Below are positions 6,061-22,005 of a stretch of 22,011 nucleotides of DNA, piece after piece. A program made the position numbers and the translations under genes. Where the stretch lies: IMG/VR virus record IMGVR_UViG_3300025872_000346, positions 1-22,011 of that record; one strand, written 5' to 3'. How positions within the stretch are numbered: position 1 is the stretch's first letter; the number at the start of each line of letters is the position of its first letter. Under the pieces are notes generated by a model. The model was not told where the DNA came from. It saw only the letters and a program-made list of their open reading frames with translations, and made no database searches. The DNA is from a virus.

Positions 6061-6064
6061 ATTT

Positions 6065-7981: not shown

Positions 7982-8382
7982 TATCGGGTTGGCTGTAGTG
8001 CGAATGATAATTGTTGAGGAAGTACATCAATTCCAATAATATAATATTTCAATGTAACATTGAAATTATTGTTATCATAATCTGGATCTACAATCACATC
8101 AATAATATCAACTCTTGGTTCATAATTTCTAATTGTATTTTCTATTTCATCCTTTATAACGGACGCTGAAATTGAGTCAATATTCTCAAAGAGAGAACGA
8201 CTTACTTTTGAACCAAGATTTTGATTAAAAAAACGTTCTCCGGGATAAGTAAGAACTAAATTGCGAATAGAACGAGCAATTGCATTCTCATTTTTGAGTG
8301 CAATAAGGTCATAATTTATTGGATTTACTTGGAATGACATACTTAGGTCTTTAAAACCCTTACTTACCCGTTCTACAGGCAT
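7981..8382 (-). CDS. 25: Baseplate wedge protein gp25 (GPW/gp25 family)
   Basis: 133 residues, the usual length for T4 gp25 (132). It has the family core ENAIARSIRNLVLTYPGERF followed by FNQNLGSKVSRSLFE (residues about 30-65) and a C-terminal beta-rich part (VDIIDVIVDPDYDNNNFNV, then YYIIGIDVLPQQLSFAL). Members of this family form the inner baseplate that triggers sheath contraction together with gp6 and gp53. It is the first gene of the late structural unit here; its stop overlaps the gp6 start. No Shine-Dalgarno sequence is visible in the very AT-rich 38-nt leader. A late-promoter motif (AATAAATA) lies 29 nt upstream. Confidence 0.95.
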   Translation of the reverse strand: MPVERVSKGFKDLSMSFQVNPINYDLIALKNENAIARSIRNLVLTYPGERFFNQNLGSKVSRSLFENIDSISASVIKDEIENTIRNYEPRVDIIDVIVDPDYDNNNFNVTLKYYIIGIDVLPQQLSFALQPTR

Positions 8383-8410
8383 AAAAGTATAAAAATTAAT
8401 AATTATATCT

Positions 8411-8418
8411 TATTTATT
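8411..8418 (-). promoter_or_regulatory. T4-type late promoter motif upstream of gp25
   Basis: Minus-strand AATAAATA in the 38-bp gap between the 83-aa gene and gp25. It matches the ATAAATA core of late promoters recognised by gp55/gp33-type factors in T4-like phages and fits the late nature of gp25 and gp6. It lies just after the stop codon of the upstream gene and about 29 nt before the gp25 ATG. The sequence around it is AT-rich, so a chance match is possible. Confidence 0.5.
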
Positions 8419-8420
8419 CA

Positions 8421-8672
8421 CTATTTTTGGGCTTCGTAAAGTGGTTCAGTGCCATATTCCCAATCATCATAATCGTCATCATTACGAATTTTTGAGTGAA
8501 TCTCATTTTGAACCATAAAATCATGCTTTTTGGGAGTCAAATCATCATTTGAGATCTCACGTAACATTTTCTGTGAGTTAATATTTGATTCCCAACCGTA
8601 TTCACCTGACAAATACTGAGTTCCCCAGTTTTCTTTCATAAATTTTTCATCCTTATCGACTTTTTTAGTCAT
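8421..8672 (-). CDS. Small acidic hypothetical protein (83 aa)
   Basis: 83 residues, charged and polar, with many Asp/Glu and a WGTQYLSGEYGWES segment near residue 16 and an aromatic acidic tail (NDDDYDDWEYGTEPLYEAQK). No membrane segment or known motif. This is one of the few genes here with a good ribosome binding site: AGGAG sits six bases before the ATG (start supported). It follows the 163-aa gene by 12 bp and precedes gp25. I do not recognise a function; position next to the baseplate genes suggests a late or structural accessory role, but that is inference. Confidence 0.75.
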   Translation of the reverse strand: MTKKVDKDEKFMKENWGTQYLSGEYGWESNINSQKMLREISNDDLTPKKHDFMVQNEIHSKIRNDDDYDDWEYGTEPLYEAQK

Positions 8673-8684
8673 TTTAGCTCCTGA

Positions 8685-9176
8685 TTAGTGAAAATCAGAA
8701 CTTTTTACGGGGTTGCTATCCCGTGTTTCTATTATATCATAGTCATCTTCAAGTATTTCCTTTAGATATTCATCGTCCCAAAGGTCATAATACTCTGTTT
8801 TTGCCAGTTTTTCTCTAAATTTACGTAATTTTTGTGTTGGTTGCGCTAAAATTAAGTTATATTTACCATTATTTGTTTGAATTCCCTGAATATATGTATT
8901 GTATGACCCACAATCTTCAAAAAATTTCCAGTCTTTATGTTTCTCATTGTAAAAATTGACCCAAAATTGAACAGTTTCGAGATTAAAGTAGTCTTCTACA
9001 ATATAAATGATAACTTGATACCCTTCGATTGGATAAATCTCTTCCGCAGAGCACTCTACAATCTTATATTTTGCATTTGAAGCAAAGGGACAGATTGCAA
9101 ATCCCTTTAATTCTGGTCTCACTTTTGATACTTCTTTAATCCAGTTAAAAATATACTTTTCTTTTTCTGTTAACAT
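8685..9176 (-). CDS. Hypothetical protein with N-terminal GFAICPFA motif (163 aa)
   Basis: 163 residues. The N-terminal part reads EKYIFNWIKEVSKVRPELKG followed by FAICPFASNA, a pattern reminiscent of the short DUF1415-type families in which a Cys-Pro-Phe-Ala motif follows an amphipathic helix; this resemblance is by eye only. The C-terminus is acidic (YYDLWDDEYLKEILEDDYD). The only Met is residue 1, so the start is forced, yet the seven-T tail of the terminator at 9177-9210 ends exactly at the ATG and leaves no room for a ribosome binding site. Expression may depend on terminator read-through or leaderless initiation. No function can be assigned. Confidence 0.7.
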   Translation of the reverse strand: MLTEKEKYIFNWIKEVSKVRPELKGFAICPFASNAKYKIVECSAEEIYPIEGYQVIIYIVEDYFNLETVQFWVNFYNEKHKDWKFFEDCGSYNTYIQGIQTNNGKYNLILAQPTQKLRKFREKLAKTEYYDLWDDEYLKEILEDDYDIIETRDSNPVKSSDFH

Positions 9177-11348: not shown

Positions 11349-11383
11349 AGTAGTACGTAGAGGGATTAGAACGAACTGATGCT

Positions 11384-11412
11384 ATTCTAACACTTATGAC
11401 CTGACCTGTCAA
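11384..11412 (-). promoter_or_regulatory. Consensus sigma70 promoter for the 54-aa gene
   Basis: Minus strand: TTGACA at 11412-11407, 17-bp spacer, TAGAAT at 11389-11384. Both hexamers are at or within one base of the bacterial sigma70 consensus with ideal spacing. Start of transcription would be near 11377, about 29 nt before the ATG at 11348. It would be read by the host RNA polymerase right after infection. Confidence 0.75.
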
Positions 11413-11548: not shown

Positions 11549-11784
11549 ACGAAACTTATCTAATCACGAATGAATTTCAAGTTGCATTCTATAAAGTTTT
11601 ATTAGAGAAGAATCTATACGAAACTTATCTAATCACGAATGAATTGACATTCTTATTCAGTTGTGATATGATATTATGAATTGGCATACGAAACTTATCT
11701 AATCACGAATGAATTTCGAATTAGATTGTATAAGTTAATGCTAATTCAGAAATGCTACGAAAAGCATCTAATCACGAATGAGTT
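11549..11784. repeat. Four-copy 28-bp direct repeat, period 69-70 bp
   Basis: Three identical 28-bp copies at 11549-11576, 11618-11645 and 11688-11715 and a fourth with four mismatches at 11757-11784; all contain TCTAATCACGAATGA. Start-to-start distances are 69, 70 and 69 bp, and the 41-42-bp sequences between them differ. A fifth, partial copy (ACACGAATGATTT) sits at 11494-11506. The regular spacing and lack of reading frame suggest protein-binding iterons. There is no internal dyad, no cas gene and no typical leader, so I do not call it CRISPR. Confidence 0.85.
11644..11672 (+). promoter_or_regulatory. Rightward sigma70-like promoter inside the repeat array
   Basis: Plus strand: TTGACA at 11644-11649, 17 bp, TATGAT at 11667-11672. 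The first two bases of the -35 are the last two bases of repeat copy 2. No plus-strand gene follows, so the product would be a non-coding RNA running through repeat copies 3 and 4. Confidence 0.55.
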
Positions 11785-12954: not shown

Positions 12955-13200
12955 TTAGAAGTCGAACACATCGCTATTGATTTCGACCACATTTACCTTG
13001 GGGTCAGTATAGGAAACTCCATCACCAGTTACTGCATCAAACCCCATACAATCGCAGAAGGTTTGATAATCACCACACTGACGGGCAAGATTATACAAAC
13101 CCTCAGTATTGTTGATCCAGAGTGCAACATTCCAGGTTTCATAATTCGTCCAACCGTTATAGGAAGTGTCGGTCAGATTGGTTTGAAAAGTGTTAGTCAT
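12955..13200 (-). CDS. DUF7249-like protein (81 aa)
   Basis: 81 residues with the signature YNGWTNYETWNVALWINNTE (residues 14-33) that marks a small protein family widespread in phages (DUF7249). The rest, GLYNLARQCGDYQTFCDCMG, has conserved aromatic and Cys residues, followed by an acidic tail. Members are often found in early or accessory regions and have no known activity. The start overlaps the stop of the 53-aa gene by ATGA, so both are probably translated in sequence from the C1 transcript. Confidence 0.85.
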   Translation of the reverse strand: MTNTFQTNLTDTSYNGWTNYETWNVALWINNTEGLYNLARQCGDYQTFCDCMGFDAVTGDGVSYTDPKVNVVEINSDVFDF

Positions 13201-13358
13201 TTGGAGAAGAGTTGTTGAACTTGATCGAAATCCTTACATTGTGCTGCTTGAATTGCTTTTGTCATTGAATAGATGACATAACCACATTGATGTTGGGAGT
13301 TACAAACTGCATAAGCAGGTTGTTTGGTTTCAATGTCGAAAACAGTTTTGAGTAGCAT
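13197..13358 (-). CDS. Small Cys-containing hypothetical protein (53 aa)
   Basis: 53 residues: MLLKTVFDIETKQPAYAVCN then SQHQCGYVIYSMTKAIQAAQ and CKDFDQVQQLFSK. Three cysteines and a helix-rich C-terminal half; the Gln-rich stretch is hydrophilic and there is no membrane segment. Its stop overlaps the DUF7249 start by ATGA. Upstream it is separated from the 58-aa gene by 35 bp without a promoter-like motif, so it belongs to the C1 unit. No function recognised. Confidence 0.65.
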   Translation of the reverse strand: MLLKTVFDIETKQPAYAVCNSQHQCGYVIYSMTKAIQAAQCKDFDQVQQLFSK

Positions 13359-13393
13359 TTTGTTTGTTAGAATTGTTGGGGTGAAATTAAGAA

Positions 13394-13570
13394 TCAGACT
13401 TGAGAGAGTGCATCTTTCTTCTGACGGGGATTAGAAACTTGCTTTACCCAGGAAGACTTTTTATATGTCTTTGCTTGTGAAGGAAGTTTAGTCTTGTTAT
13501 TCTGAACTTCATTGATAAGTTCAATGAATTGAATAAAGAATTGGCGCTCCATCCGTTGAGCAGTGGTCAT
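13394..13570 (-). CDS. First gene of the C1 unit, basic hypothetical protein (58 aa)
   Basis: 58 residues: MTTAQRMERQFFIQFIELIN, then EVQNNKTKLPSQAKTYKKSS, then WVKQVSNPRQKKDALSQV. An N-terminal amphipathic helix is followed by a Lys-rich, probably unstructured tail. The start is well supported: it lies exactly 22 nt after the C1 -10 hexamer, and AGGGA stands six bases before the ATG. It heads a unit of six tiny genes that ends at the 12245-12280 terminator. No function recognised. Confidence 0.75.
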   Translation of the reverse strand: MTTAQRMERQFFIQFIELINEVQNNKTKLPSQAKTYKKSSWVKQVSNPRQKKDALSQV

Positions 13571-13573
13571 TTC

Positions 13574-13762
13574 TCATCCCTGAACTTCGTTCAGTCTACC
13601 ATGGCAGGGGGGTCTGTGCTCTTTTAGTGTGCCAGTGCTACAAGTGGCACAAGGGGTATGCGACTCAACGTGGGACAGATACATAAACTTGCGAAACAGT
13701 TGAGATTCATTTTCCAAATCATCATCAGATAAGATACTTGTGAAACTCAAAAGTTCCATCAT
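13574..13762 (-). CDS. Hypothetical protein reading into cassette C1 (62 aa)
   Basis: The first part, MMELLSFTSILSDDDLENES and QLFRKFMYLSHVES (residues 1-34), looks like a normal acidic helical phage protein. Residues from about 35 on (HTPCATCSTGTLKEHRPPCH) are simply the translated cassette C1: dyad, promoter and leader. In other cassettes the TGA of the TGAGTC box ends the upstream gene; here it is one base out of frame, so translation runs on until a TGA four bases before the next ATG. I infer an ancestral stop near residue 34 lost by a small indel. Its ATG overlaps the stop of the 44-aa secreted peptide gene. Function unknown. Confidence 0.55.
   Translation of the reverse strand: MMELLSFTSILSDDDLENESQLFRKFMYLSHVESHTPCATCSTGTLKEHRPPCHGRLNEVQG
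13593..13667 (-). promoter_or_regulatory. Cassette C1 (dyad plus promoter)
   Basis: Minus-strand order: TGAGTC box (13667-13662), dyad GTGCCA/TGGCAC (13650-13645 with 13634-13629, inner part mismatched), CTAAAAGAGCACAG, G/C-rich spacer, -10-like TAGACT (13598-13593). The -10 is followed by a small hairpin CTGAAC-GAA-GTTCAG and AGGGA, and 22 nt separate it from the ATG. C1 lies inside the open frame of the upstream 62-aa gene. Confidence 0.7.
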
Positions 13763-13893
13763 TTACAATCATTTGGATTGAGAGTGCAAATCATTTCAGC
13801 ACGTTGTTCTTGATATTCATTCACAGTTGCAAGTGCGTTCATTCCAATATGAAGTGAAGAGAAAGTAATAAAGAAAAACAGTGCGATTCGCAT
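13759..13893 (-). CDS. Short secreted peptide (44 aa)
   Basis: 44 residues. MRIALFFFITFSSLHIGMNA is a typical signal peptide: one basic residue, a hydrophobic core, and a likely cleavage after LA (residues 21-22). The predicted mature part, TVNEYQEQRAEMICTLNPND plus CK, is about 22 residues with two cysteines that could form a disulfide in the periplasm. The gene follows the 82-aa gene by 11 bp and overlaps the 62-aa gene by ATGA. A host-envelope or superinfection role is possible but not shown. Confidence 0.65.
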   Translation of the reverse strand: MRIALFFFITFSSLHIGMNALATVNEYQEQRAEMICTLNPNDCK

Positions 13894-13904
13894 TTGTAGA
13901 AAAA

Positions 13905-14153
13905 TTAGAGTTGGCAGAGAACTTTCATCATTGCACTTACCTCATCCTTTGTATTCCATCCAATCACATCATCAGTCATATTTCCATTCGGTCGATAGAT
14001 TGCTACTTCATATGTACCTTCTGGAATTATACCATATAATCCACTTCCATAAAGTCCAGAAACAACAGAAATACTCCATCCATTGCTGAACTTATACTTA
14101 CCCTGAATTGCACCAGGAATATGATGCGGGATGAATTGAAGTTGTTCGAACAT
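13905..14153 (-). CDS. Conserved-looking hypothetical protein (82 aa)
   Basis: 82 residues from MFEQLQFIPHHIPGAIQGKY. The centre, FSNGWSISVVSGLYGSGLYG then IIPEGTYEVAIYRPNG, has the Gly- and aromatic-rich look of a small beta-barrel, ending with WNTKDEVSAMMKVLCQL. I chose the ATG at 14153, not the longest frame: the extra 17 residues overlap the end of the DUF6011 gene and look non-coding, and the leader TTCTTTATTC..CAACA before this ATG matches the leader of the 113-aa membrane gene after cassette C6. No function recognised. Confidence 0.75.
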   Translation of the reverse strand: MFEQLQFIPHHIPGAIQGKYKFSNGWSISVVSGLYGSGLYGIIPEGTYEVAIYRPNGNMTDDVIGWNTKDEVSAMMKVLCQL

Positions 14154-14182
14154 TGTTTGTGTTGATAAAGGGAATAAAGAAC

Positions 14183-14761
14183 TCAGCCCAGGCGCTTGGC
14201 ACAAATAGGACCGATTCCCATCTGAATGGAAAGAGGATCACTCAACGTGCGAGCACAAATCGAACAAGTGCCAGTCTCGTGACCATAAATCTTTGCAAGT
14301 TGCAGAAGATTATCATTAGCATCTTCCAGAAGATTCATAACATCTTCGGAAACATTGCCAATCAGACCACCAGTTGCAGTAATCTTTGCAACATATTGAT
14401 TGTTCTCATACACATAAACACAACCAATGTTGGCACCTTTATTCACCGTGGAAAGAGTAATACCAGGCAGTCGCACTTGAAACTTCGTTGCGCGATAGGC
14501 ACCAGCATCATACATCTTGTTCACCAGTTGCTTGTAAGGACCAAATACAACAGGAGTTTCAGAATCAATCAAATCCTGAGTTGCAAGATAATGAATCCAG
14601 GACTCTTGCGAAACAGTCAGATTCTTTTTCGCAAGCAGATCATTCACAAAAGTATTGAACTTTACATTGTGGGACAGATAAGATTTTGCATCCGAGAGAG
14701 TATCAAACTTGCTCTCGAAGTTGATTTCTTGACCCTTTTTGTTGACGGTGAAAGTAGTCAT
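14183..14761 (-). CDS. DUF6011-type zinc-binding protein (192 aa)
   Basis: 192 residues. The last 30 contain C166-x2-C169 (TGTCSICARTLSDPLSIQMG) and IGPICAKRLG with C187, the pattern of the short DUF6011 treble-clef-like domain often found at the C-terminus of phage and bacterial proteins of unknown role. The N-terminal 160 residues (MTTFTVNKKGQEINFESKFD, then a helical part QESWIHYLATQDLIDSE) form a probable separate domain. The ATG lies exactly 22 nt after the C2 -10 hexamer with AGGGA six bases before it. First gene of the C2 unit. A DNA- or RNA-binding role is suggested by the zinc-finger pattern only. Confidence 0.8.
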   Translation of the reverse strand: MTTFTVNKKGQEINFESKFDTLSDAKSYLSHNVKFNTFVNDLLAKKNLTVSQESWIHYLATQDLIDSETPVVFGPYKQLVNKMYDAGAYRATKFQVRLPGITLSTVNKGANIGCVYVYENNQYVAKITATGGLIGNVSEDVMNLLEDANDNLLQLAKIYGHETGTCSICARTLSDPLSIQMGIGPICAKRLG

Positions 14762-14783
14762 TTCTCATCCCTGAACTCCGTTC

Positions 14784-14859
14784 AGTCTACCACCTCAGGT
14801 GCCCTTGTGCTCTTTTAGTGTGCCACCTCTACAAGTGGCACACGGTATCATTGGACTCA
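14784..14859 (-). promoter_or_regulatory. Cassette C2 (dyad plus promoter)
   Basis: Same order as C1: TGAGTC (14859-14854; its TGA is the stop of the 107-aa gene), 9-bp dyad GTGTGCCAC/GTGGCACAC (14843-14835 with 14826-14818), CTAAAAGAGCACA, spacer, TAGACT (14789-14784), hairpin CTGAAC-GGA-GTTCAG, AGGGA, then the ATG 22 nt after the -10. Confidence 0.75.
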
Positions 14860-15180
14860 GGCAGATGCGTGGGACAGGGCATATTTCACCAATTCAGTGC
14901 GATTATTCTTATATTCAAGAATCAATCGGATCACTTGATTGGTATCCTCTTTGTCTACCTCATATTCATTTTCTGAACTTGCAATTTGTCGAAAGATACT
15001 TGCAATCTCAAAATCATTTGGAAACAGCAAGTCTACATTCTCATCAATTTCAATAAAATCATCCACTGCATCAGCAGTAAGTTTCAGTGGAATATCAGCA
15101 GAAAGTAGACCCAAAGTTGCAAGTCGCTCAGCAGCACCAACAACCCACATCACTTTGCACTCGTTGACAGTCAGATTCAT
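14857..15180 (-). CDS. Acidic hypothetical protein (107 aa)
   Basis: 107 residues: MNLTVNECKVMWVVGAAERL, an acidic middle (DDFIEIDENVDLLFPNDFEI) and a C-terminal helix (VIRLILEYKNNRTELVKYAL) ending SHASA. The stop TGA is part of the TGAGTC box of cassette C2. The region before the stop (CTGTCCCACG) also recurs before cassette C1, so gene 3' ends seem to travel with the cassettes. It follows the 65-aa gene by 6 bp. Last gene of the C3 unit. No function recognised. Confidence 0.75.
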   Translation of the reverse strand: MNLTVNECKVMWVVGAAERLATLGLLSADIPLKLTADAVDDFIEIDENVDLLFPNDFEIASIFRQIASSENEYEVDKEDTNQVIRLILEYKNNRTELVKYALSHASA

Positions 15181-15186
15181 TTTCGT

Positions 15187-15384
15187 TCAGTTCAGAATAA
15201 TACGGTAATCAATGCTAAGAATACACCAACCAGAAGCAGCAGTGATCTCTTCAACTAGATCATCTTCATCATCTGCTTCCCACACATCACCAACGTATTG
15301 TGAGATGATTTCATCTTTCTCAAAGGAAGAAAGTTCTTCATCATCAAAATCAAACTCAATGTTTGTAATTTGGAATTGCATCAT
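15187..15384 (-). CDS. Acidic hypothetical protein (65 aa)
   Basis: 65 residues from MMQFQITNIEFDFDDEELSS, then FEKDEIISQYVGDVWEADDE and DDLVEEITAASGWCILSIDY. The layout (beta strand, acidic helices, GWC plus a final strand) is one I associate with a very common small cyanophage protein, without known role. The start at 15384 shares one base with the stop of the DUF2786 gene (TGATG); the longer frame would begin four residues earlier inside that gene, and residue 2 is also a possible start. Confidence 0.75.
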   Translation of the reverse strand: MMQFQITNIEFDFDDEELSSFEKDEIISQYVGDVWEADDEDDLVEEITAASGWCILSIDYRIILN

Positions 15385-16058
15385 CAAACACCGCAAAGTT
15401 GTTTGGTCACAGAACCAGTTGCTTGGCGATTCAATGAAACACCAGCACCAACATTAGAACCAGCATATGCACCAGCACCACTTGCGCCATTCATTTTCTT
15501 AGCACGTCCGAATCGCATTGCAGACAGTTTGTTATTCACTGCCTCTGCATCATCATGAACTCGATTCTCTTCCTTTTTCATTTCACTCAGTCGCAGAGCA
15601 ACTTTATCAGCAAATGCTTTGCGGAAGTTAATCTTGAAATTGCGAGGAACAGTATCACCACGCAGAGAAGCAAGAATCTTTTCTGCTTTATGTGCAACTT
15701 CTGCTTCTTTCTCCATCACTTGCACCAGATAATCATAATAGAGTCGCACTTGGATTTGTTGTGCTTCACTACCAATCACCTGAAGAGATTTGGTATCACC
15801 ATTCTTCAGATATGCCTTTGCATCATAGAAAGATGCAATCGCATTAAGCAACAGAGTGAGTGCAGCATTAACACGCTTGAATGACAGAAACTCTTCATCA
15901 AGAACTTGAGTTTCAGTTGCCTCACTGATAGTGATGCCATACTGCTTGCACAGTTTATCAATCATTGCGGCAGCAGCAGATGCCTCACCGTCAAATGTAG
16001 TATTTTCTTGAAGTTTCAGAATGGACTGAATCTTTGCAATAACTTGGGCGCGATCCAT
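15384..16058 (-). CDS. DUF2786 domain protein (224 aa)
   Basis: 224 residues from MDRAQVIAKIQSILKLQENT. Residues about 5-42 (IQSILKLQENTTFDGEASAA, then AAMIDKLCKQYGI) are the DUF2786 signature. The middle (residues 60-165) matches the companion region of such proteins with SFYDAKAYLKNGDTKSLQVI, and the C-terminal 45 residues are a basic, Gly/Ala-rich tail (SGAGAYAGSNVGAGVS). The frame is open for nine more codons upstream (MMNEVQTNA), but that ATG lies inside the C3 -10 TATGAT; the chosen ATG is exactly 22 nt after it, as in four other cassettes. Function of DUF2786 proteins is unknown; presence in many phages and plasmids suggests DNA-related roles. Confidence 0.8.
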   Translation of the reverse strand: MDRAQVIAKIQSILKLQENTTFDGEASAAAAMIDKLCKQYGITISEATETQVLDEEFLSFKRVNAALTLLLNAIASFYDAKAYLKNGDTKSLQVIGSEAQQIQVRLYYDYLVQVMEKEAEVAHKAEKILASLRGDTVPRNFKINFRKAFADKVALRLSEMKKEENRVHDDAEAVNNKLSAMRFGRAKKMNGASGAGAYAGSNVGAGVSLNRQATGSVTKQLCGV

Positions 16059-16080
16059 TGCGTTTGTCTGAACTTCGTTC

Positions 16081-16156
16081 ATCATACCACGGCAGGGGGG
16101 CGTTTGGGGGATATAGTGGACGGTGCTACAAGTGGCACAGTCTTACACTGGACTCA
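16081..16156 (-). promoter_or_regulatory. Cassette C3 (degenerate dyad plus promoter)
   Basis: TGAGTC (16156-16151; its TGA is the stop of the 37-aa gene), the conserved half GTGCCACTTGTAG, a decayed second half, a G/C-rich spacer and -10 TATGAT (16086-16081) followed by GAACGAAGTTCAG and the ATG 22 nt later. The CTAAAAGAGCACAG element is missing. Confidence 0.65.
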
Positions 16157-16267
16157 CCGATCCATAGTGATAAGATCCGCAACAGTGTAAAGTGTGTTTG
16201 CAGTTGCAACTCTCACACCAGGAGAGAAAATAAATGCAACTGCAAAGATAAGAACAATAACCTTCAT
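16154..16267 (-). CDS. Short secreted or membrane peptide (37 aa)
   Basis: 37 residues: MKVIVLIFAVAFIFSPGVRV then ATANTLYTVADLITMDR. A basic residue followed by a hydrophobic core and ATA gives a plausible signal peptide cut after residue 23, leaving a 14-residue peptide; it could also stay as a membrane anchor. Its stop TGA is inside the TGAGTC box of cassette C3. It follows the 70-aa gene by 38 bp. Resembles the 44-aa peptide of the C2 unit in design but not in sequence. Confidence 0.55.
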   Translation of the reverse strand: MKVIVLIFAVAFIFSPGVRVATANTLYTVADLITMDR

Positions 16268-16305
16268 TGAATCAGGTTTCTTAAACGTGAGAGTTTTAGT
16301 TCTCA

Positions 16306-16518
16306 TCAAGCATAAATGGCGCAGAGTTTCTTAAAGTCATATGAACCATCTTCATCTTCTTGCGCTTCATAAACGATGACCTTTTCACCGTCAAGATCAC
16401 AACTCCAATTTAGTGCATCTTGTTTTGCATCATACAGATCATCAAACCATTCTGCATCAATAAGATCAAAAGATGCGGGACAGGTGATAAACATTGGAAT
16501 CAAGAATAAAATTACCAC
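16306..16518 (-). CDS. Hypothetical protein with hydrophobic N-terminus (70 aa, GTG start)
   Basis: 70 residues. The frame begins with GTG and a hydrophobic stretch VILFLIPMFITCPAS, possibly a signal or anchor, followed by an acidic domain (FDLIDAEWFDDLYDAKQDAL, then NWSCDLDGEKVIVYEAQEDE). An internal ATG (residue 9, at 16494) would give a 62-aa soluble form. Neither has a Shine-Dalgarno. A perfect hairpin (16522-16540) lies just upstream and could influence start choice or end part of the transcripts. Middle gene of the C4 unit. No function recognised. Confidence 0.6.
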   Translation of the reverse strand: MVILFLIPMFITCPASFDLIDAEWFDDLYDAKQDALNWSCDLDGEKVIVYEAQEDEDGSYDFKKLCAIYA

Positions 16519-16521
16519 AGA

Positions 16522-16540
16522 GGGGAGAATAAATCTCCCC
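16522..16540. other. G/C-rich hairpin between 65-aa and 70-aa genes
   Basis: GGGGAGA (16522-16528) and TCTCCCC (16534-16540) form a perfect 7-bp stem with a 5-nt loop, 11 bp after the stop of the 65-aa gene. On the minus strand only a broken T-rich stretch follows, so it would be a weak or regulated terminator, or an RNA-stabilising element. Confidence 0.6.
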
Positions 16541-16551
16541 CCAAATTAAAC

Positions 16552-16749
16552 TCAGACTGCCGCCATATAGCGTGCAATCTCATCATCATTCTCAGGACAA
16601 TCAGCAATGCCCAGATCCTCACAAACTTGCTCGCGGGTGAGTTCAGTTTGCTCAGGAACAATCACATTCAGAATGTCCAGAATCTGAGTACCAGTAGCAC
16701 CCTTGCGGAGCATACCGAACATCACATCCTTAGAGAAATCAACAGTCAT
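16552..16749 (-). CDS. Hypothetical protein, first gene of C4 unit (65 aa)
   Basis: 65 residues: MTVDFSKDVMFGMLRKGATG, TQILDILNVIVPEQTELTRE, QVCEDLGIADCPENDDEIAR, YMAAV. The pattern 'GATGTQILDIL' recalls a short helix-turn-helix like segment, not enough to call. Start context ACAATGACTG is shared with the 64-aa gene of the C5 unit. The ATG is 55 nt after the C4 -10; the leader contains AAGGGTGG like that of C6. No function recognised. Confidence 0.7.
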   Translation of the reverse strand: MTVDFSKDVMFGMLRKGATGTQILDILNVIVPEQTELTREQVCEDLGIADCPENDDEIARYMAAV

Positions 16750-16804
16750 TGTAGTTTGTGTTAGTTTGACGTTTGAGGCGGGGCGTGACTCCCTCCACCC
16801 TTCT

Positions 16805-16876
16805 AATATAGCAGGTTTTGGGGTCTGTGCTCTTTTAGTGTGCCACTAGAACAAGTGGCACATCTCATCATTGGTC
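16805..16876 (-). promoter_or_regulatory. Cassette C4 (perfect dyad plus promoter)
   Basis: Perfect 9-bp dyad TGTGCCACT/AGTGGCACA (16862-16854 with 16847-16839) with 6-nt loop, CTAAAAGAGCACAG, 17-bp spacing from AGAGCA to an extended -10 TGCTATATT (hexamer 16810-16805), then a 55-nt leader. Confidence 0.75.
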
Positions 16877-17062
16877 TTGCTGAGATTCTAGTAGTTCTGG
16901 ATAGTATTCCTGAACTTCACTGAGAAGTTCATCATCACTATAACCAGAAAGATTTTCTTCCAGTTGATCTCCAACAATTCGCATCAAATCTTTGGTGCTC
17001 ATATTATCAAGAACCAGATCCACATAATCGGAGATCAGTTGCTCGCGGTTGAAATCAGTCAT
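16868..17062 (-). CDS. Acidic hypothetical protein (64 aa)
   Basis: 64 residues from MTDFNREQLISDYVDLVLDN then MSTKDLMRIVGDQLEENLSG and YSDDELLSEVQEYYPELLES. All-helical and acidic; I have seen similar 'ISDYVD-x-x-x-D-x-M' layouts among small cyanophage proteins. I prefer the ATG at 17062 to the longest frame (10 residues earlier) because its context CAATGACTG matches the start of the 65-aa gene of the C4 unit. Second and last gene of the C5 unit, after the ArdA-like gene. No function recognised. Confidence 0.7.
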   Translation of the reverse strand: MTDFNREQLISDYVDLVLDNMSTKDLMRIVGDQLEENLSGYSDDELLSEVQEYYPELLESQQDQ

Positions 17063-17098
17063 TGTGCTAGTAGGATTAGGAAGAGAAATCATTAACGA

Positions 17099-17500
17099 TC
17101 AAAAACAAGTATCAAACACATAACCACCTTCAGTGAAGACAAAATCAAGAGAATCAAAACTCTCTTCCCAGTCAATCACAAGAAAAGCAGGAAGATCCAC
17201 ACAATAACAGTCATTCACAAATTGTTCGGTGAATTGACCTTTGGATTCATACTGCCCACGGTAAGCATCTTGAAATCCACTGATAGATTCAATACCAAAC
17301 TCCTCAATGAAATCATCTACTGCACCATAGGAATACTCCTCACCAATTTCAACATATTCCTCATAATAGTTGATGAACTTATCTTCACCGTATTCTGCGA
17401 TGAAATTATAAATGTCATCAACAGAGAAAGAGTTTTCAACAAGATGAGTGATAAAATCCTCAGTCTCAACTTGCAGTTGCACTTTGGTTTCGGTAGTCAT
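17099..17500 (-). CDS. ArdA-like antirestriction protein (133 aa)
   Basis: 133 very acidic residues. Residues about 25-60 (YNFIAEYGEDKFINYYEEYV, then GEEYSYGAVDDFIEEFG) and above all GFQDAYRGQYESKGQFTEQF followed by LPAFLVIDWEESFDSLDF match the layout of the two C-terminal ArdA domains (the FxDAYxGxY and the xIDWE segments). ArdA proteins mimic about 40 bp of bent DNA and block type I restriction enzymes. Usual length is about 165 residues; here most of the N-terminal domain appears absent. Start chosen at MTTETK: it lies 22 nt after the C5 -10 hexamer, whereas the earlier MNEVQ start overlaps that hexamer. First gene of its unit, fitting early expression against host defence. Confidence 0.75.
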   Translation of the reverse strand: MTTETKVQLQVETEDFITHLVENSFSVDDIYNFIAEYGEDKFINYYEEYVEIGEEYSYGAVDDFIEEFGIESISGFQDAYRGQYESKGQFTEQFVNDCYCVDLPAFLVIDWEESFDSLDFVFTEGGYVFDTCF

Positions 17501-17522
17501 TTCGTTTGATTGAACTTCGTTC

Positions 17523-17582
17523 ATTGTAGAAAGTCTAGAGTGGGTTTGGGGAGTGTAGTGTGCCACTAAAAGAAGTGGCACA
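17523..17582 (-). promoter_or_regulatory. Cassette C5 (perfect dyad plus promoter)
   Basis: Perfect 9-bp dyad TGTGCCACT/AGTGGCACA (17582-17574 with 17567-17559), loop different from C4 and C6. CTAAAAGAGCACAG is missing. -10 TACAAT (17528-17523) is followed by GAACGAAGTTCA and the ATG 22 nt later. A TAGACT 9 bp upstream of the -10 is an alternative. Confidence 0.7.
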
Positions 17583-17588
17583 TCAGCA

Positions 17589-17882
17589 TCAAGATTTCAC
17601 AGATTTCTGATAGATTTCCATACCCTTACGGAGACGGATTGAATCTTCTAATACATCACCAATCTGTTCGTAGATGTAATCACAACCACCTACATCAGCG
17701 AGCACATCTTGAGTGAAAGGTTCAGGGAAATGAATCACTTCTTCTAGTGAATCACCAATCTCTTCATTATACTCAAACACATCGTTTTTGGTGAACACAA
17801 ACGCAGCACAAACTGCATCCTCACCTTGAGTATCAATCAGATGATTGATACTATCACGAAGTTCAGAAAGTGTGCGGTACAT
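17589..17882 (-). CDS. Acidic hypothetical protein (97 aa)
   Basis: 97 residues: MYRTLSELRDSINHLIDTQG, EDAVCAAFVFTKNDVFEYNE, an acidic middle (SLEEVIHFPEPFTQDVLADV) and a C-terminal helix (YIYEQIGDVLEDSIRLRKGM). Mixed alpha/beta, soluble, no motif recognised. The ATG follows the 62-aa gene's stop by 2 bp and the gene ends just before cassette C5. Third and last gene of the C6 unit. Confidence 0.75.
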   Translation of the reverse strand: MYRTLSELRDSINHLIDTQGEDAVCAAFVFTKNDVFEYNEEIGDSLEEVIHFPEPFTQDVLADVGGCDYIYEQIGDVLEDSIRLRKGMEIYQKSVKS

Positions 17883-17884
17883 AA

Positions 17885-18073
17885 TCAGTCGTCTCCAAAA
17901 TTGTTAGAAAGAAAATCCTCAAGTTCAACCAGTTTGGATTCACTCAAACCAGTCAAATACTCATCAACAATCATAGCAAGAAGATCAGGTTCTTCCCTGC
18001 ATTTTGCATACAGAAACTCAAACAGTTGAATCTTTTTGTAGTAAAGTTTGGTGAGTTCAGTGTCAGTCATCAT
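17885..18073 (-). CDS. Helical hypothetical protein (62 aa)
   Basis: 62 residues: MMTDTELTKLYYKKIQLFEF, LYAKCREEPDLLAMIVDEYL, TGLSESKLVELEDFLSNNFG, DD. All-helical and acidic toward the end. Two adjacent ATGs are possible; the first directly abuts the stop of the membrane-protein gene, so coupling is likely. No function recognised. Confidence 0.7.
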   Translation of the reverse strand: MMTDTELTKLYYKKIQLFEFLYAKCREEPDLLAMIVDEYLTGLSESKLVELEDFLSNNFGDD

Positions 18074-18415
18074 TCAAGCAAAAATGTATTGAAAGAACAG
18101 AGAATCAACCAGACGATTACTATTCAGTTTGACCCAACGATAAACTTTGGGAGTAGCAATCACAATCGCAGCAATGAAATCAATCAGATTCACAACAATG
18201 CGAATTGTATTGACTTGCACTGTTTCACCATTATCATCCCACCACAGTTGAAGTGCAGTCCAAACATAGGAAAACACACCAACCACAACAGCATAAACAG
18301 TCGCAGCAAATTGAATCACATTATCACCAAACTTCACATAATCAAACTCTTTGAGTTTCTTGTTGCTAAACTCAACCAGAGCATCAACAGGAGGGAAAGA
18401 ATTAGTCAGTTGCAT
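18074..18415 (-). CDS. Two-helix membrane protein (113 aa)
   Basis: 113 residues with two clear membrane segments: residues about 33-58 (VIQFAATVYAVVVGVFSYVW) and 71-89 (IRIVVNLIDFIAAIVIATPK), an N-terminal soluble part (MQLTNSFPPVDALVEFSNKK) and a short basic aromatic tail. Probably in the host inner or thylakoid membrane. It heads the C6 unit; its leader is long (about 53 nt from the -10) and ends TTCTTTATTCTCTACAACA, similar to the leader of the 82-aa gene. A holin is conceivable, but there is no lysis gene nearby and its promoter type suggests early expression, so I do not call it that. Confidence 0.75.
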   Translation of the reverse strand: MQLTNSFPPVDALVEFSNKKLKEFDYVKFGDNVIQFAATVYAVVVGVFSYVWTALQLWWDDNGETVQVNTIRIVVNLIDFIAAIVIATPKVYRWVKLNSNRLVDSLFFQYIFA

Positions 18416-18468
18416 TGTTGTAGAGAATAAAGAACTGGTGGATCAGGTCCATCCCTCACCACCCTTAT

Positions 18469-18543
18469 ACAATACCACACTTTGGGGTCTGTGCTCTTTT
18501 AGTGTGCCACTAGAACAAGTGGCACATCTCAACACTAGACTCA
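18469..18543 (-). promoter_or_regulatory. Cassette C6 (perfect dyad plus promoter)
   Basis: TGAGTC (18543-18538), perfect 9-bp dyad TGTGCCACT/AGTGGCACA (18526-18518 with 18511-18503), CTAAAAGAGCACAG, 17 bp from AGAGCA to TATTGT (18474-18469); TATAAG overlapping it is an alternative -10. The leader starts ATAAGGGTGG, as in C4. Confidence 0.7.
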
Positions 18544-18544
18544 C

Positions 18545-18919
18545 TCACAGTTGTGCTTGGATCAGGTCCGCAATCTGTGAGAAAGTATAACCAGTATCAT
18601 TTAGGTGTGAGACACAAAGTGATTCTTCCTCATCATCAACAAGCAAATAAGGATTATTAGTTTCCAGTTCCGCCCAATCCACTACTGATTTTGGCAGAAA
18701 CTCACTTTCTCCTTCATAATACCAATAGTCCATTGGTTGAAGATTAGTTTCTTCATTACCCCTGAACTTCCACTCAGTATTATGCTCTTCTGCATAAATG
18801 TCGCAAAGAACACCAAGGCAACAATAACCACTCACACTGCGGAGTTTCTCCTTGCCTTGCTCATACTTACCAGAATGCAGAGCATTTACCCACGCTTCTT
18901 TGATTTTGGAGTTCATCAT
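18545..18919 (-). CDS. Hypothetical protein of the YCCLGVLCD type (124 aa)
   Basis: 124 residues. IKEAWVNALHSGKYEQGKEK then LRSVSGYCCLGVLCDIYAEE (residues 5-44) is a recognisable pattern in phage and bacterial proteins of unknown function, with a W-x-x-x-L-x-S-G-K-Y helix and a double Cys. The rest includes WYYEGESEFLPKSVVDWAEL and a C-terminal LNDTGYTFSQIADLIQAQL helix. Two adjacent ATGs; either could be used. Last gene of the C7 unit; its stop lies just outside the TGAGTC box of C6. No activity known. Confidence 0.8.
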   Translation of the reverse strand: MMNSKIKEAWVNALHSGKYEQGKEKLRSVSGYCCLGVLCDIYAEEHNTEWKFRGNEETNLQPMDYWYYEGESEFLPKSVVDWAELETNNPYLLVDDEEESLCVSHLNDTGYTFSQIADLIQAQL

Positions 18920-18922
18920 TTT

Positions 18923-19129
18923 TCAGTTCGCAGAAAGAACAAGATTAGCAACACGGGATTCAGGAACAAAGTCCTGCAACTTATCATACACCCTTTGGAA
19001 TTGATTTCCAAGGTTCATATAATAAGCAGCAAGATGTTTATCATCTGCATCATAGAGAGCATTTTCTTTCTCTTCAAGTGCAGAGATAATATCCAAGATT
19101 TGACCCGAAGTAAAAGAAATGGTAGTCAT
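18923..19129 (-). CDS. Helical hypothetical protein (68 aa)
   Basis: 68 residues: MTTISFTSGQILDIISALEE, KENALYDADDKHLAAYYMNL, GNQFQRVYDKLQDFVPESRV. Mostly helical, possibly a small coiled-coil. Its ATG overlaps the stop of the 61-aa gene (ATGA) and its stop lies 3 bp before the next start. No function recognised. Confidence 0.7.
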   Translation of the reverse strand: MTTISFTSGQILDIISALEEKENALYDADDKHLAAYYMNLGNQFQRVYDKLQDFVPESRVANLVLSAN

Positions 19130-19311
19130 TGAATGTCAAAAATGTCGAACAGTTCGCGTTGCGTTTGAGTGAATAACGTATCCTCAGGGGGATAGTTATA
19201 CTTCTCATTCTCAAATTCCTTGTAGAAATAGAGAATATCACGAAGAGCATTAAGTTGCTTCTCGTTCAGGAGTTCTTCAACCATTAGAACTTTATCAAGT
19301 AAGGTTTGCAT
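19126..19311 (-). CDS. Helical hypothetical protein (61 aa)
   Basis: 61 residues: MQTLLDKVLMVEELLNEKQL, NALRDILYFYKEFENEKYNY, then PPEDTLFTQTQRELFDIFDI. Amphipathic helices and an acidic end. Start and stop both overlap neighbours (TGATG with the 56-aa gene, ATGA with the 68-aa gene), typical of a coupled operon. No function recognised. Confidence 0.7.
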   Translation of the reverse strand: MQTLLDKVLMVEELLNEKQLNALRDILYFYKEFENEKYNYPPEDTLFTQTQRELFDIFDIQ

Positions 19312-19481
19312 CAGTAATCACTCCCATCATTCACACAACGCTCAATCCAATAAGAATAAGCAGCAAAGTTGTGCGGATGATTCTTACACACTTTATAGTA
19401 ATTGAAAGCATACTTCACTCGATTCTCAGGCACTTTGAGTGCAGGAATCCAAGAGTGATGGGGAACATAACTGGAAACCAT
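19311..19481 (-). CDS. Hypothetical protein, first gene of C7 unit (56 aa)
   Basis: 56 residues from MVSSYVPHHSWIPALKVPEN then RVKYAFNYYKVCKNHPHNFA and AYSYWIERCVNDGSDY. His-, Tyr- and Trp-rich, with two Cys. Start reasoning: the frame is open 12 codons further up to a TTG, but that part contains the C7 -10 TATAGT. The ATG at 19481 lies 24 nt after that hexamer and has GAGGA seven bases upstream, so it is preferred; the ATG at 19499 would be at the likely transcription start. No function recognised. Confidence 0.7.
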   Translation of the reverse strand: MVSSYVPHHSWIPALKVPENRVKYAFNYYKVCKNHPHNFAAYSYWIERCVNDGSDY

Positions 19482-19505
19482 TGGGACTTCCTCAACCATA
19501 GAACT

Positions 19506-19580
19506 ACTATACCACAACCAGGGCGCTGTGCTCTTTTAGTGTGCCAGTCCTACAACTGGTCCAGTCTCACACCAGACTCA
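19506..19580 (-). promoter_or_regulatory. Cassette C7 (re-paired dyad plus promoter)
   Basis: TGAGTC (19580-19575; its TGA is the stop of the 54-aa gene), a dyad changed on both arms to CCAGT/ACTGG (19559-19555 with 19548-19544), CTAAAAGAGCACAG, 17 bp from AGAGCA to TATAGT (19511-19506), ATG 24 nt after the -10. Confidence 0.7.
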
Positions 19581-19742
19581 CCCAAAGTTGCTTATGTATT
19601 TTTTAAGAAAATGTCTACCTCTTTCCACATCAAACTTCTTCTCAAAGACTTCCATTAGTTCTAATACAAGATCAGCATAAACGATTGGAACTCGTATGTG
19701 TTTTGTTTCACCTGACTTTGGAAACTTCTTTGTGAATGGCAT
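19578..19742 (-). CDS. Basic hypothetical protein (54 aa)
   Basis: 54 residues: MPFTKKFPKSGETKHIRVPI then VYADLVLELMEVFEKKFDVE and RGRHFLKKYISNFG. The 'IRVPIVYADLVLELMEVF' stretch resembles a short family in cyanobacteria and their viruses with a basic start, a strand and a long helix, reminiscent of ribbon-helix-helix or arm-type DNA-binding peptides; this is a by-eye suggestion. It follows the helicase by 27 bp and ends in the TGAGTC box of C7. It is rich in Lys/Arg, unlike most neighbours. Confidence 0.7.
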   Translation of the reverse strand: MPFTKKFPKSGETKHIRVPIVYADLVLELMEVFEKKFDVERGRHFLKKYISNFG

Positions 19743-19769
19743 TGGTTTTGATGTGGGACATATAGTAAT

Positions 19770-21005
19770 TTATACCACAACCTCACCTTTCTCAAATACA
19801 ACATTCACCACATTTTGCAGTTGCCTTGCAATTCGGTCTCCATAGTTGTTATTCACAGGAATCACGATCTTACCATAAGATTTCTTGTACATTTGATAGC
19901 AACCAGCAGGAATCTTACCATCTTGAATTGCTTTGCGATCATCGCGGTGCATACGCACTACGCGACCGATTGTTTGACACATTTCAATCGCAGGAAGATT
20001 ACGCAGCATAATGCAATGCGTCAGACCGTGAACATTGATACCCTCAGACAGAATAGAGTAATGAAACACGATCATCTTTTGTTCGGGATCATTACCATAC
20101 TCATTCATCAGATCAAAGAACTTCTCACGGGACACTTTGCGATTATTCACATATGCACCGTGCTTTGCAGTGATATGAAATGTTGCATATCCCATTTCTT
20201 GCAATTCATCTAGCACATCACTCTCAGTAAACATATTCCAAATTACTTTGGTGCTGGGTGATGCAACAAGAACTTTGGGAGTAATGTCATCATCAATCTG
20301 TCGCAGAATACCAAGAATGTTTTCTGCATCTACAAAGTGTGCGTTTTCCTTTGTGCGAACAGTTTCTGATTCATAAGGAATCACCTGAGGAGGAATAATG
20401 CAACCTGCATCAATCAGTTCTTTTGCAGGAATACTAATGATATTACTACCATACACATCAGTATTATTCATTGACTCTTCACTGTTGTTATACTTTGGCG
20501 TTGCAGTGAAGAAATAAGCATTTTCTGCAACATAAGCAGTTTGTGCTATACCAACAAAATTGGATTTCTTCACACAATGATGTGCTTCATCAAAATACAC
20601 TACATCAATGTTGATGTCTGCTTCATTCACACGACCGATAGAATTGTAAGTCGTGAAGATAAAGTGATGCTTACCACTCCCAATCGCAGTATCATTGTTT
20701 TCTGCAATCTCATCAGGTCGGGTAGAGCGATTGTGATGAGTTTCTCCACTATGCACTTGCATATAAGAAATATCTAGATCCTTGAGATACTCCTCAAACT
20801 CACTGCAAAGTTGATTTGCAAGAAGAATACGAGGAGCAACAATTACAAATGTCTTAGGTTCTGTTGCATTGATGATACGTTGTTTTGCATCTTCCATCAT
20901 CACAACAGTCTTCCCACCACCAGTAGGAATATACACTGTACCCTTGATTGCTTGCTTCACTGCATCAAGAGCACGTTGTTGATAGGAATAAAACTGAACG
21001 GTCAT
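19770..21005 (-). CDS. SF2 DEAD/DEAH-type helicase (411 aa)
   Basis: 411 residues from MTVQFYSYQQRALDAVKQAI. Motifs in order: YQQRAL (8-13), Walker A TGGGKT (28-33), VVYFDEAHH with DEAH at 139-142, motif III FFTATP (165-170), and motifs V/VI in ILSEGINVHGLTH and QTIGRVVR (344-351). This is a complete two-domain superfamily 2 helicase of the UvsW/SSL2 type; T4 UvsW is longer (about 500), so whether it replaces UvsW in recombination and replication restart, or is an extra helicase, is open. The longest frame starts eight residues earlier (MYEYTSKL), but that ATG is two bases after the TATAAT; the chosen ATG is exactly 22 nt after it. Heads the C8 unit with the 54-aa gene. Confidence 0.9.
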   Translation of the reverse strand: MTVQFYSYQQRALDAVKQAIKGTVYIPTGGGKTVVMMEDAKQRIINATEPKTFVIVAPRILLANQLCSEFEEYLKDLDISYMQVHSGETHHNRSTRPDEIAENNDTAIGSGKHHFIFTTYNSIGRVNEADINIDVVYFDEAHHCVKKSNFVGIAQTAYVAENAYFFTATPKYNNSEESMNNTDVYGSNIISIPAKELIDAGCIIPPQVIPYESETVRTKENAHFVDAENILGILRQIDDDITPKVLVASPSTKVIWNMFTESDVLDELQEMGYATFHITAKHGAYVNNRKVSREKFFDLMNEYGNDPEQKMIVFHYSILSEGINVHGLTHCIMLRNLPAIEMCQTIGRVVRMHRDDRKAIQDGKIPAGCYQMYKKSYGKIVIPVNNNYGDRIARQLQNVVNVVFEKGEVVV

Positions 21006-21027
21006 CAATTTGCTTGTGTATTCATAC

Positions 21028-21087
21028 ATTATAGCACCCCTCCCGTGGATTCGGGAAGAGTGCTGGACGGTCCTACAAGTGGCACAG
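21028..21087 (-). promoter_or_regulatory. Cassette C8 (degenerate dyad, strongest -10)
   Basis: Conserved half GTGCCACTTGTAG with a decayed second half as in C3, a separate small hairpin TCCCG/CGGGA (21056-21052 with 21045-21041), and a perfect extended -10 TGCTATAAT (hexamer 21033-21028), 22 nt before the helicase ATG. Confidence 0.7.
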
Positions 21088-21095
21088 GACTATAT

Positions 21096-21407
21096 TTAAT
21101 CGTTCATTCCCATACCAATGAGAATAAGCAAGATGATTCCAATAGGAATAGCAATATACCAGTAAGTTACAACAGCATAAAGAACAAGTCCAATACCCAA
21201 TAACCATACAAGTCCTTCGCTATCTCCAGAATTAAAGGAAGAACCTCCACCACTAGAACTAACTTGTCTTAGATTTGTGATTTGTTGCACATCACCGTGC
21301 TTTGCATAGATTTGTTGCTTTGCACCACTAAATGTTGCTGCTTCAACTTCGGTGGTAATTCTACCAACCTGTGAATTAACAAATACTTCTGCTCTCCAAG
21401 TTGCCAT
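21096..21407 (-). CDS. Membrane protein with small N-terminal domain (103 aa)
   Basis: 103 residues. Residues 1-50 (MATWRAEVFVNSQVGRITTE, then VEAATFSGAKQQIYAKHGDV) form a compact strand-helix domain of a type I know from host and phage membrane proteins ('A-x-x-x-x-A-K-x-x-I'). A Ser/Gly linker (51-63) leads to two closely spaced membrane segments, about 65-82 and 83-99 (LVWLLGIGLVLYAVVTYWYI and AIPIGIILLILIG). Short hydrophilic end MGMND. Its stop lies just upstream of cassette C8. Probably sits in the host inner membrane with the small domain in the cytoplasm; function unknown. Confidence 0.75.
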   Translation of the reverse strand: MATWRAEVFVNSQVGRITTEVEAATFSGAKQQIYAKHGDVQQITNLRQVSSSGGGSSFNSGDSEGLVWLLGIGLVLYAVVTYWYIAIPIGIILLILIGMGMND

Positions 21408-21412
21408 AATAA

Positions 21413-21805
21413 TCAGAATGCGATGGGTTCAAGTGTAGGTTCAGCAAATCCAAATTCAGTCTTGGATACTTCCACAAACTTATCAGTACCTGGAACTTGC
21501 TTATAGCACGTCAACTTGCCCTTGAGGGACTTAGAAGAACTTGGTGAAGTCTCTACACAATTCTCATCAACCTCAGCAAAGGTATTATACTCATCATCAG
21601 AGTTCTTGTCAACACCATCAAAGATAATCAGGTTGATACAAGCATCCTTTGCATCTTTGAGAGTCTTAGAGACGTGTTGAGGAGTGTCTACAACATCAGT
21701 CACAATCCATTTCTGGGATGATGCTTTCCTTATGAATCCAACAGTGTTAGAATCCTTCTGGACCTCGTAGATACCAGCAGACAGACGAGGGAAAGTGAAA
21801 GTCAT
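21413..21805 (-). CDS. Hypothetical protein (130 aa)
   Basis: 130 residues: MTFTFPRLSAGIYEVQKDSN, TVGFIRKASSQKWIVTDVVD, then a helix (TLKDAKDACINLIIFDGVDK), an acidic Ser-rich linker and a second strand-rich part (LKGKLTCYKQVPGTDKFVEV). The N-terminal 45-60 residues look like a small domain of the type that reads G-x-Y-x-V-x-x-x-x-x-x-G-x-I-x-K-x-x-x-x-x-W, with a helix after it. Stop is 5 bp before the next start, start 2 bp after the 65-aa gene. Function unknown. Confidence 0.75.
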   Translation of the reverse strand: MTFTFPRLSAGIYEVQKDSNTVGFIRKASSQKWIVTDVVDTPQHVSKTLKDAKDACINLIIFDGVDKNSDDEYNTFAEVDENCVETSPSSSKSLKGKLTCYKQVPGTDKFVEVSKTEFGFAEPTLEPIAF

Positions 21806-21807
21806 AA

Positions 21808-22005
21808 TCAGAAAGAAGAGAGAACTTGAAACTGAGTTTTGAGTTTGCTTAGGTCAGCATAGATAGACTCTGCACCTTCAAGAGACATATTAGGACGCAA
21901 TCCTTCCTTACATTCACTAATCCTTTTATTCCATTTATACATCGCATCTTGAAGTGCCCAATACAGAGTCTCAAACTCTTGATTGGTAATTTCAATAGTT
22001 TTCAT
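21808..22005 (-). CDS. Hypothetical protein at the right edge (65 aa)
   Basis: 65 residues from MKTIEITNQEFETLYWALQD then AMYKWNKRISECKEGLRPNM and SLEGAESIYADLSKLKTQFQ. A short strand followed by helices, probably a small helical hairpin. The ATG at 22005 is inside the window; two further upstream codons are open to the edge (TTG), but the ATG is the natural start. Its stop is 2 bp before the next ATG, so it shares a transcript with the 130- and 103-aa genes. Promoter is outside the window. Confidence 0.7.
   Translation of the reverse strand: MKTIEITNQEFETLYWALQDAMYKWNKRISECKEGLRPNMSLEGAESIYADLSKLKTQFQVLSSF

Follow-up and report, generated by a model that had tools for sequence, protein, structure and literature searches.

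A promoter-like cassette with a putative inverted-repeat operator recurs between the small operons of a freshwater T4-like cyanophage

What lies between the consecutive small operons of a phage genome, and what might it do there? The question is raised by a 22,011-nt virus fragment (IMG/VR record IMGVR_UViG_3300025872_000346, positions 1 to 22,011; hereafter the window), in which eight related intergenic cassettes, C1 to C8, separate successive leftward gene units. The original prediction, made from the letters of this fragment, held that each cassette carries a dyad and a -10 hexamer, which would give the unit below it a promoter of its own. We find that the eight-cassette array exists, and that it represents a real, conserved and phage-specific promoter-like cassette. 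The reading that we favor, with a probability of about 0.72, is that each cassette is a self-contained and probably early phage promoter with an inverted repeat (IR) as its operator, which is of the activator type, and that it doubles as a recombination joint.

Re-reading of the minus strand confirmed all eight cassettes, with the -10 hexamers exactly where they had been placed. Their layout consists of a stop codon, a 22-bp IR, a slot of 29-31 nt, a -10 hexamer that is often extended, a short leader, and the next start codon. The IR is present in all eight cassettes, well beyond chance, since a scan of the window allowing up to six substitutions returned 14 cassette hits and two strays, where shuffled patterns averaged 0.9. 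These 14 hits are the eight cassettes on the minus strand and six of them met again on the plus strand, a consequence of the near-palindromic IR. Below the eight cassettes we counted ∼27 leftward open reading frames (ORF), in agreement with the "some 25" genes first estimated.

The arms of the IR belong to two classes, A and B. Five cassettes have class-A arms on both sides: C1 (GTGCCACTTGTAGCACTGGCAC, 13629-13650), C2 (GTGCCACTTGTAGAGGTGGCAC, 14820-14841), C4 (GTGCCACTTGTTCTAGTGGCAC, 16840-16861), C5 (GTGCCACTTCTTTTAGTGGCAC, 17560-17581), and C6 (18504-18525, with the same letters as C4), all on the minus strand, as are the remaining elements of the array. Arms are mixed in C3 (A/B, GTGCCACTTGTAGCACCGTCCA, 16117-16138), C7 (B-like/A, GGACCAGTTGTAGGACTGGCAC, 19541-19562, with the left arm GGACCAGTT), and C8 (A/B, GTGCCACTTGTAGGACCGTCCA, 21064-21085). 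The -10 is TAGACT in C1 (13593-13598) and C2 (14784-14789), TATGAT in C3 (16081-16086), TATATT in C4 (16805-16810), TATTGT in C6 (18469-18474), TATAGT in C7 (19506-19511), and TATAAT in C8 (21028-21033), where it would be the promoter of a helicase gene. It is extended in all of these, by TGC in C4 and C8 and by TGG in the others, but not in C5 (TACAAT, 17523-17528). A leader palindrome, CTGAACGAAGTTCAG, follows the -10 of C1.

Some details of the common plan needed correction. The left arm GTGCCACTTGT, proposed for every copy, does not hold for C5 (GTGCCACTTCT) and C7 (GGACCAGTTGT), and the self-complementary dyad does not hold for C3 and C8, whose right arm is of the other class (ACCGTCCA). 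The C2 block, given as ending in CACAG, actually reads CTAAAAGAGCACAA, and the spacing between block and -10 is not 17-18 bp but 14-15 nt from the end of the block (16-17 from GAGCAC). C8 alone carries an additional slot hairpin between IR and -10 (ACTCTTCCCGAATCCACGGGAGGGGT, 10-bp stem, no T-run, 21036-21061), which was missing from the plan and is the sole long slot stem in the window. At the other end of the array, the ORF upstream of C1 (13574-13762, minus strand) lacks a stop codon at the expected position and stays in frame through the entire cassette, which adds ∼30 residues (...PCATCSTGTLKEHRPPCHGRLNEVQG).

Is this the geometry of a promoter? The exact 31-letter pattern matches 34 IMG/VR stretches, and from related IMG/VR contigs and two long records we collected 166 distinct copies, in which arms and -10 were defined separately. 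Counted from the 24-mer, the -10 follows at 27 nt in 59 copies, at 28 nt in 88, and at 29 nt in 19, which places the IR centre at about -52 to -54 when the hexamer is taken as -12 to -7, and a TG stands one base ahead of the hexamer in 77%. Among the copies of the first round, the -10 was 27-29 nt past the 24-mer in 142 of 144 (with TG in 113), a figure for which the strand had been chosen by the -10 itself. A cleaner control comes from the left half-site, GTG[CA]CA[CG]TT: in 137 distinct places a -10 stands downstream of it at the cassette offset, whereas six other offsets gave counts of 1-7. In 160/166 copies the end of an upstream ORF falls between -90 and +80 nt relative to the IR start (median 9 nt before the IR), and 161/166 are followed by a downstream ORF.

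The slot of these copies has no consensus -35. Its consensus reads aaa....Cacag.cc past the repeat and.cCcc...a.GTGc ahead of the -10, and in 43% a GRGCAC block resembling a third half-site occupies the -35 position. Slot hairpins with a stem of at least 6 bp are present in 30% of the copies, whereas shuffled slots have them in 4%. In the S-PM2 cassette at 11348 this hairpin is a true terminator (CACTCCTCCACCACAGGGGAGTG-TTTT) that runs into TATAAT, and the contig L087 has another true T-run terminator in the slot at 17709. Generic sigma-70 and terminator scans of the window gave no excess beyond ∼1.4 standard deviations, and no listed promoter coincided with a cassette. At the start site, some copies show short and perfect palindromes centred on GGA or GAA (CTGAACGGAGTTCAG, GATTGCGTAGCAATC) or the related GATTACGGAGTAATC, for example at 13575-13600 in the window and in L040; these may be a second operator or a 5' RNA hairpin.

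If the cassette serves the gene below it, it should be found at the equivalent boundary of other phages. A search of IMG/VR that used the product of the first C3 gene as query, instead of the cassette, yielded 56 relatives with an upstream region. Of these, 45 were scored automatically as carrying a cassette and 10 of the other 11 by eye, with small deviations, leaving only L129 without one. The fixed -10 spacing, the downstream ORF, and the presence of a cassette at 55/56 equivalent boundaries support the predicted promoter role. The prediction would have been refuted by a lack of cassettes at such boundaries, and it withstood this check.

The same architecture, with diverged letters, is found in the cultured cyanophages Syn9, S-RIM8, S-SKS1, S-SRM01, P-HM2, S-PM2, and, in few copies, S-CREM1. 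When whole records were searched with one common degenerate repeat allowing up to two mismatches (reversed controls gave 0-1), we counted 15 copies in S-SRM01, 10 in S-SKS1, 9 in S-PM2, 6 in P-HM2, 2 each in S-RIM8 and Syn9, and 1 in S-CREM1, next to 11 and 13 in the two long records, G002 and G003. T4 and Ma-LMM01 had none in this search; a transcriptome study of Ma-LMM01 likewise reported no phage-specific motif (PMC5780444). Copies are clustered. G002 (171 kb) has them at 152-168 kb, G003 (156 kb) at 3.6-33.6 kb, and P-HM2 at 35.7-39.8 kb, with a minus-strand copy there preceding minus-strand genes. In Syn9 they occupy the small-ORF region at 43-53 kb, with cassettes at 46290, 47205, 48559, and 52997.

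Next comes the question whether the repeat acts as DNA or as RNA. Among the 166 copies, 111 have A/A arms, 27 A/B, 12 B/A (plus one variant), and 15 B/B, which means that 40 (24%) have mixed arms. The letters G-x-C-A are near-invariant in both arms, and the IR is 22 or 23 bp wide almost everywhere, as would be expected of a dimer on DNA and not of a loop. Mixed-arm copies barely fold (medians of -2.9 and -0.9 kcal/mol, compared with -12.9 for A/A and -8.3 for B/B), and they keep the same spacing and -10s. Because width and -10 distance are fixed while 24% of the copies have mismatched arms without a stable hairpin, a DNA operator is the better reading of the IR, in agreement with the option first raised of an operator ∼50 bp upstream of the start. 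The other option was that the repeat, within a read-through transcript, forms a terminator-like 3' end, a stabilizer, or a processing site of the upstream operon, the promoter being incidental. The good folding of A/A copies, the correlation between arm classes, the position of the repeat directly past the stop codon, and the slot hairpins that are real T-run terminators elsewhere (S-PM2 11369-11391 and the L087 copy) would suit such a role. However, a quarter of the copies have outer arms that cannot pair at an unchanged -10 distance, and the width is constant. Nor is there a T-run, as had been pointed out in setting the dyad apart from standard terminators: the 8 nt after the repeat contain 0-2 T in 135/166 copies, the terminator scan predicted no terminator at any cassette repeat of the window, and an Rfam scan returned no family, only chance matches below threshold. 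Mixed-arm copies and constant width speak against an RNA hairpin as the main function, and we consider this explanation very unlikely, although the repeat may have a secondary hairpin role beside that of operator.

What would read such an operator? Scanning 81 genomes of the host family gave 7 sites, against 12 for the reversed control, i.e. background. In 257 Gb of genomes the exact motif had nine hits, near the number estimated for chance. One of the nine is cyanobacterial, a perfect and apparently intergenic copy (GTGCCACTTGTGCAAGTGGCACA) in a Cyanobium metagenome-assembled genome (L052:3478-3500), and that genome contains no second copy. A host origin of the repeat was rejected at this sensitivity. 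Because host chromosomes are at background, a factor supplied by the phage is likelier than a host regulon, and the binding protein is more likely to be phage-supplied than host-encoded. It has to be weighed that early promoters need to be read at a time when phage proteins are still to be made, and that the use of NtcA-type promoters by cyanophages has been reported (PMC3037559), both of which favor a host transcription factor, for example of the NtcA or CRP type. The repeat does not, however, fit the NtcA site GTA-N8-TAC near -41.5, since its consensus is GTGCCACTT... with the near-invariant G-x-CA. Together with the background level of host sites and the lone Cyanobium copy, this makes a host factor improbable. 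Of the cassette phages, 7/8 (G002, S-SRM01, S-SKS1, S-RIM8, Syn9, P-HM2, and S-PM2) encode the cyanobacterial family DUF1825, which neither T4 nor Ma-LMM01 has; this co-occurrence is a weak lead to the regulator, nothing tying DUF1825 to DNA binding. HTH_3 and MazE/AbrB were rejected as candidates.

The same geometry would suit a repressor, in which case the promoter fires immediately and is later shut off by a phage protein, the start-site palindromes (CTGAACGGAGTTCAG) of some copies being possible additional operator sites. Repressor sites usually overlap the -35/-10 region or the start, whereas activators act near -53, and here the IR is centred near -53 and the -35 region is non-consensus. 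We infer activation, and regard repression as unlikely but as an alternative to be kept in mind.

A further property of the cassettes, which adds to the original prediction, is that they behave as recombination modules. Cassettes that are at least 90% identical from repeat to -10 precede non-homologous genes in 111/178 pairs, and 44 gene families are found downstream of cassettes. Because near-identical copies precede unrelated genes, we take the cassettes to be recombination modules as well. Strong functional constraint might also preserve the likeness of cassettes, but it explains less well why their slots are 96-100% alike, and copying is the better reading. The anchor, a gene encoding a DUF2786 protein, is preceded by leaders of four or more types and by upstream neighbors of 12 kinds. 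The contigs L117 and L120 are identical upstream of this gene from the right half of the repeat to the gene, bar one letter of the right arm, whereas the left half of the repeat and the upstream gene differ, which places the exchange point at the repeat centre.

These same findings could mean that the promoters are plain, constitutive, and of the extended -10 type, with a repeat that is only a recombination joint, similar to the shuffling points of promoter early stem-loop (PeSL) cassettes, and that no regulator binds. A junction at the repeat centre, identical cassettes ahead of unrelated genes, and the frequent TG before the -10 (77%) are what such promoters would show. Recombination alone, however, would not keep the G-x-CA letters, the 22-bp width, and the distance to the -10, and this constraint spans Syn9, P-HM2, and freshwater phages with differing flanking genes. 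We therefore judge an unregulated promoter to be quite unlikely, and retain the reading of an operator that is also a joint.

Where in the phage genome does the array sit? The left part of the window is AT-rich and contains the baseplate genes gp6 (6065-7981) and gp25 (7981-8382), and the right part, from 12.5 to 22 kb with ∼40% G+C, contains small leftward genes and a helicase. The helicase ORF under C8 (19770-21029, minus strand; phrog_16; Pfam ResIII/DEAD) is ∼50-53% identical to helicases of T4-like cyanophages. The C3 unit opens with the DUF2786 gene used as anchor for the boundary comparison (15384-16058, minus strand; phrog_421), and the C5 unit with an ArdA-like anti-restriction protein (17099-17500, minus strand; phrog_36653, E = 3.4e-23), whose ORF was scanned as 17099-17521 and whose start was set by inspection at the ATG at 17500. 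Syn9 has a matching order, with small ORFs at 43-58 kb, a helicase at 49.2 kb, and then gp25 and gp6. Because of this match the array is assigned to the hyperplastic region of a T4-like cyanophage, and the window is a fragment of such a freshwater phage with its array in the same locus as in Syn9. This locus, and the ArdA-like gene that opens the C5 unit, suggest early expression. Two side observations concern the composition of the window. G+C steps from ∼28% to 40% near 9-13 kb (1-9000 compared with 13000-22000), possibly at a module boundary, and the AT-rich part contains, at 11549-11784, repeated ACGAAACTTATCTAATCACGAATGA units, with two 97-nt copies 139 nt apart and a shorter repeat inside.

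Among known systems, the cassettes come close to the PeSLs of T4-type phages (Arbiol et al. 2010 and Comeau et al. 2014, as cited in PMC4503421). PeSLs are compact units of promoter and hairpin between ORFs of hyperplastic regions, present in many near-identical copies ahead of unrelated genes, and serve as recombination joints. The cassettes share the setting, lying clustered between ORFs with gp25 and gp6 adjoining the array, and share the near-identical copies before non-homologous genes (the 111 pairs and 44 families above) with a joint seen in L117/L120. A direct link is that one S-PM2 cassette contains the stem-loop 11369-11391, which PMC4503421 listed when discussing PeSLs while judging S-PM2 poor in them. 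The cassettes differ from PeSLs in that what stays constant in them is an operator-like repeat of fixed width, ∼53 bp ahead of the start, in which unpairable arms are tolerated, that the promoter has no consensus -35, and that the window repeats have no T-run terminator, such terminators occurring in S-PM2 and a few others. The G+C-rich hairpin plus T-run of an intrinsic terminator is likewise not found at the window repeats.

The middle (MotA box) and late (TATAAATA) promoters of T4 are also phage-specific, with an upstream element or factor in place of a -35. The slot consensus contains no MotA box ∼30 bp upstream of the start, and the hexamers (TATAAT, TATATT, TATGAT, and similar, mostly TG-extended) do not match the T4 late -10; cyanomyoviruses lack motA and asiA (PMC2984593). 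In the archaeal halovirus HF2, serial intergenic repeats were reporter-tested as promoters (PMC8707807), and the likeness is one of serial intergenic promoter repeats.

A novel regulatory element reportedly controls the early genes of Syn9 and is widespread in T4-like cyanophages. The cassettes occur in Syn9 and, as listed above, in P-HM2, S-PM2, S-RIM8, S-SKS1, and S-SRM01. If so, the cassette is probably the Syn9 early element, already known in marine isolates. In kind, the cassette is close to PeSLs and probably to this element. Should the two be the same, the present analysis adds the array of eight copies in a freshwater phage, the anatomy of the half-sites, and the evidence for shuffling. 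As a variant, the cassette contributes half-sites that are interchangeable within the operator, a freshwater array of high density, and direct evidence from the sequences of module exchange at the operator.

How might such a cassette work? In the gap that separates the end of one small operon from the first codon of the following one, it would present a 22-bp IR operator made of two half-sites, GTG[C/A]CA[C/G]TT or a [T/G]GGACA-type variant. Host RNA polymerase would most likely start at the -10, aided by a dimeric DNA-binding protein on the repeat that is more likely phage-supplied than host-encoded, and the slot hairpin of some copies could end the upstream transcript. One factor might control all units at once. 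Because the cassettes are alike, they also act as joints for homologous recombination, through which genes from the host-takeover region are exchanged as modules of promoter plus operon. The sequences show the anatomy, the spacing, the locus, the distribution, and the shuffling, whereas transcription start, protein binding, activation in place of repression, and early timing are inferred.

Several points weigh against this reading. The promoter role in this phage is predicted from sequence, and the putative early timing is drawn from the locus, the anti-restriction gene, and what is reported of the Syn9 element. Like arms (A/A, B/B) co-occur above chance (Fisher odds ratio 4.7, p = 0.0005), and IR positions 1, 3, and 6 pair slightly above shuffles. 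Some hairpin constraint, or dimer symmetry or shared ancestry, remains behind this arm correlation, for which either of the latter two can account. Finally, among the cassette phages the HTH_3 family was not found, and MazE/AbrB is patchy and mostly under cut-off.

The activation of early and middle genes in T4-like cyanophages, which lack Alt, ModA, ModB, MotA, and Asi, has been described as unclear (PMC2984593). The cassette offers a precise target for the missing factor, with the 22-bp repeat as double-stranded bait. A more specific version, which we put forward tentatively as a possible but somewhat doubtful one, is a dedicated system of early activation, in which a dimeric protein of the phage, which may enter the cell together with the DNA, reads the pair of half-sites and switches on the whole array of host-takeover operons at once, with the cassette as the recombination port by which phages trade these operons. 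If this is true, any captured gene would arrive pre-wired to the regulator. The cassette also offers a way in which cyanophages may exchange their many uncharacterized small genes without loss of the control over them.

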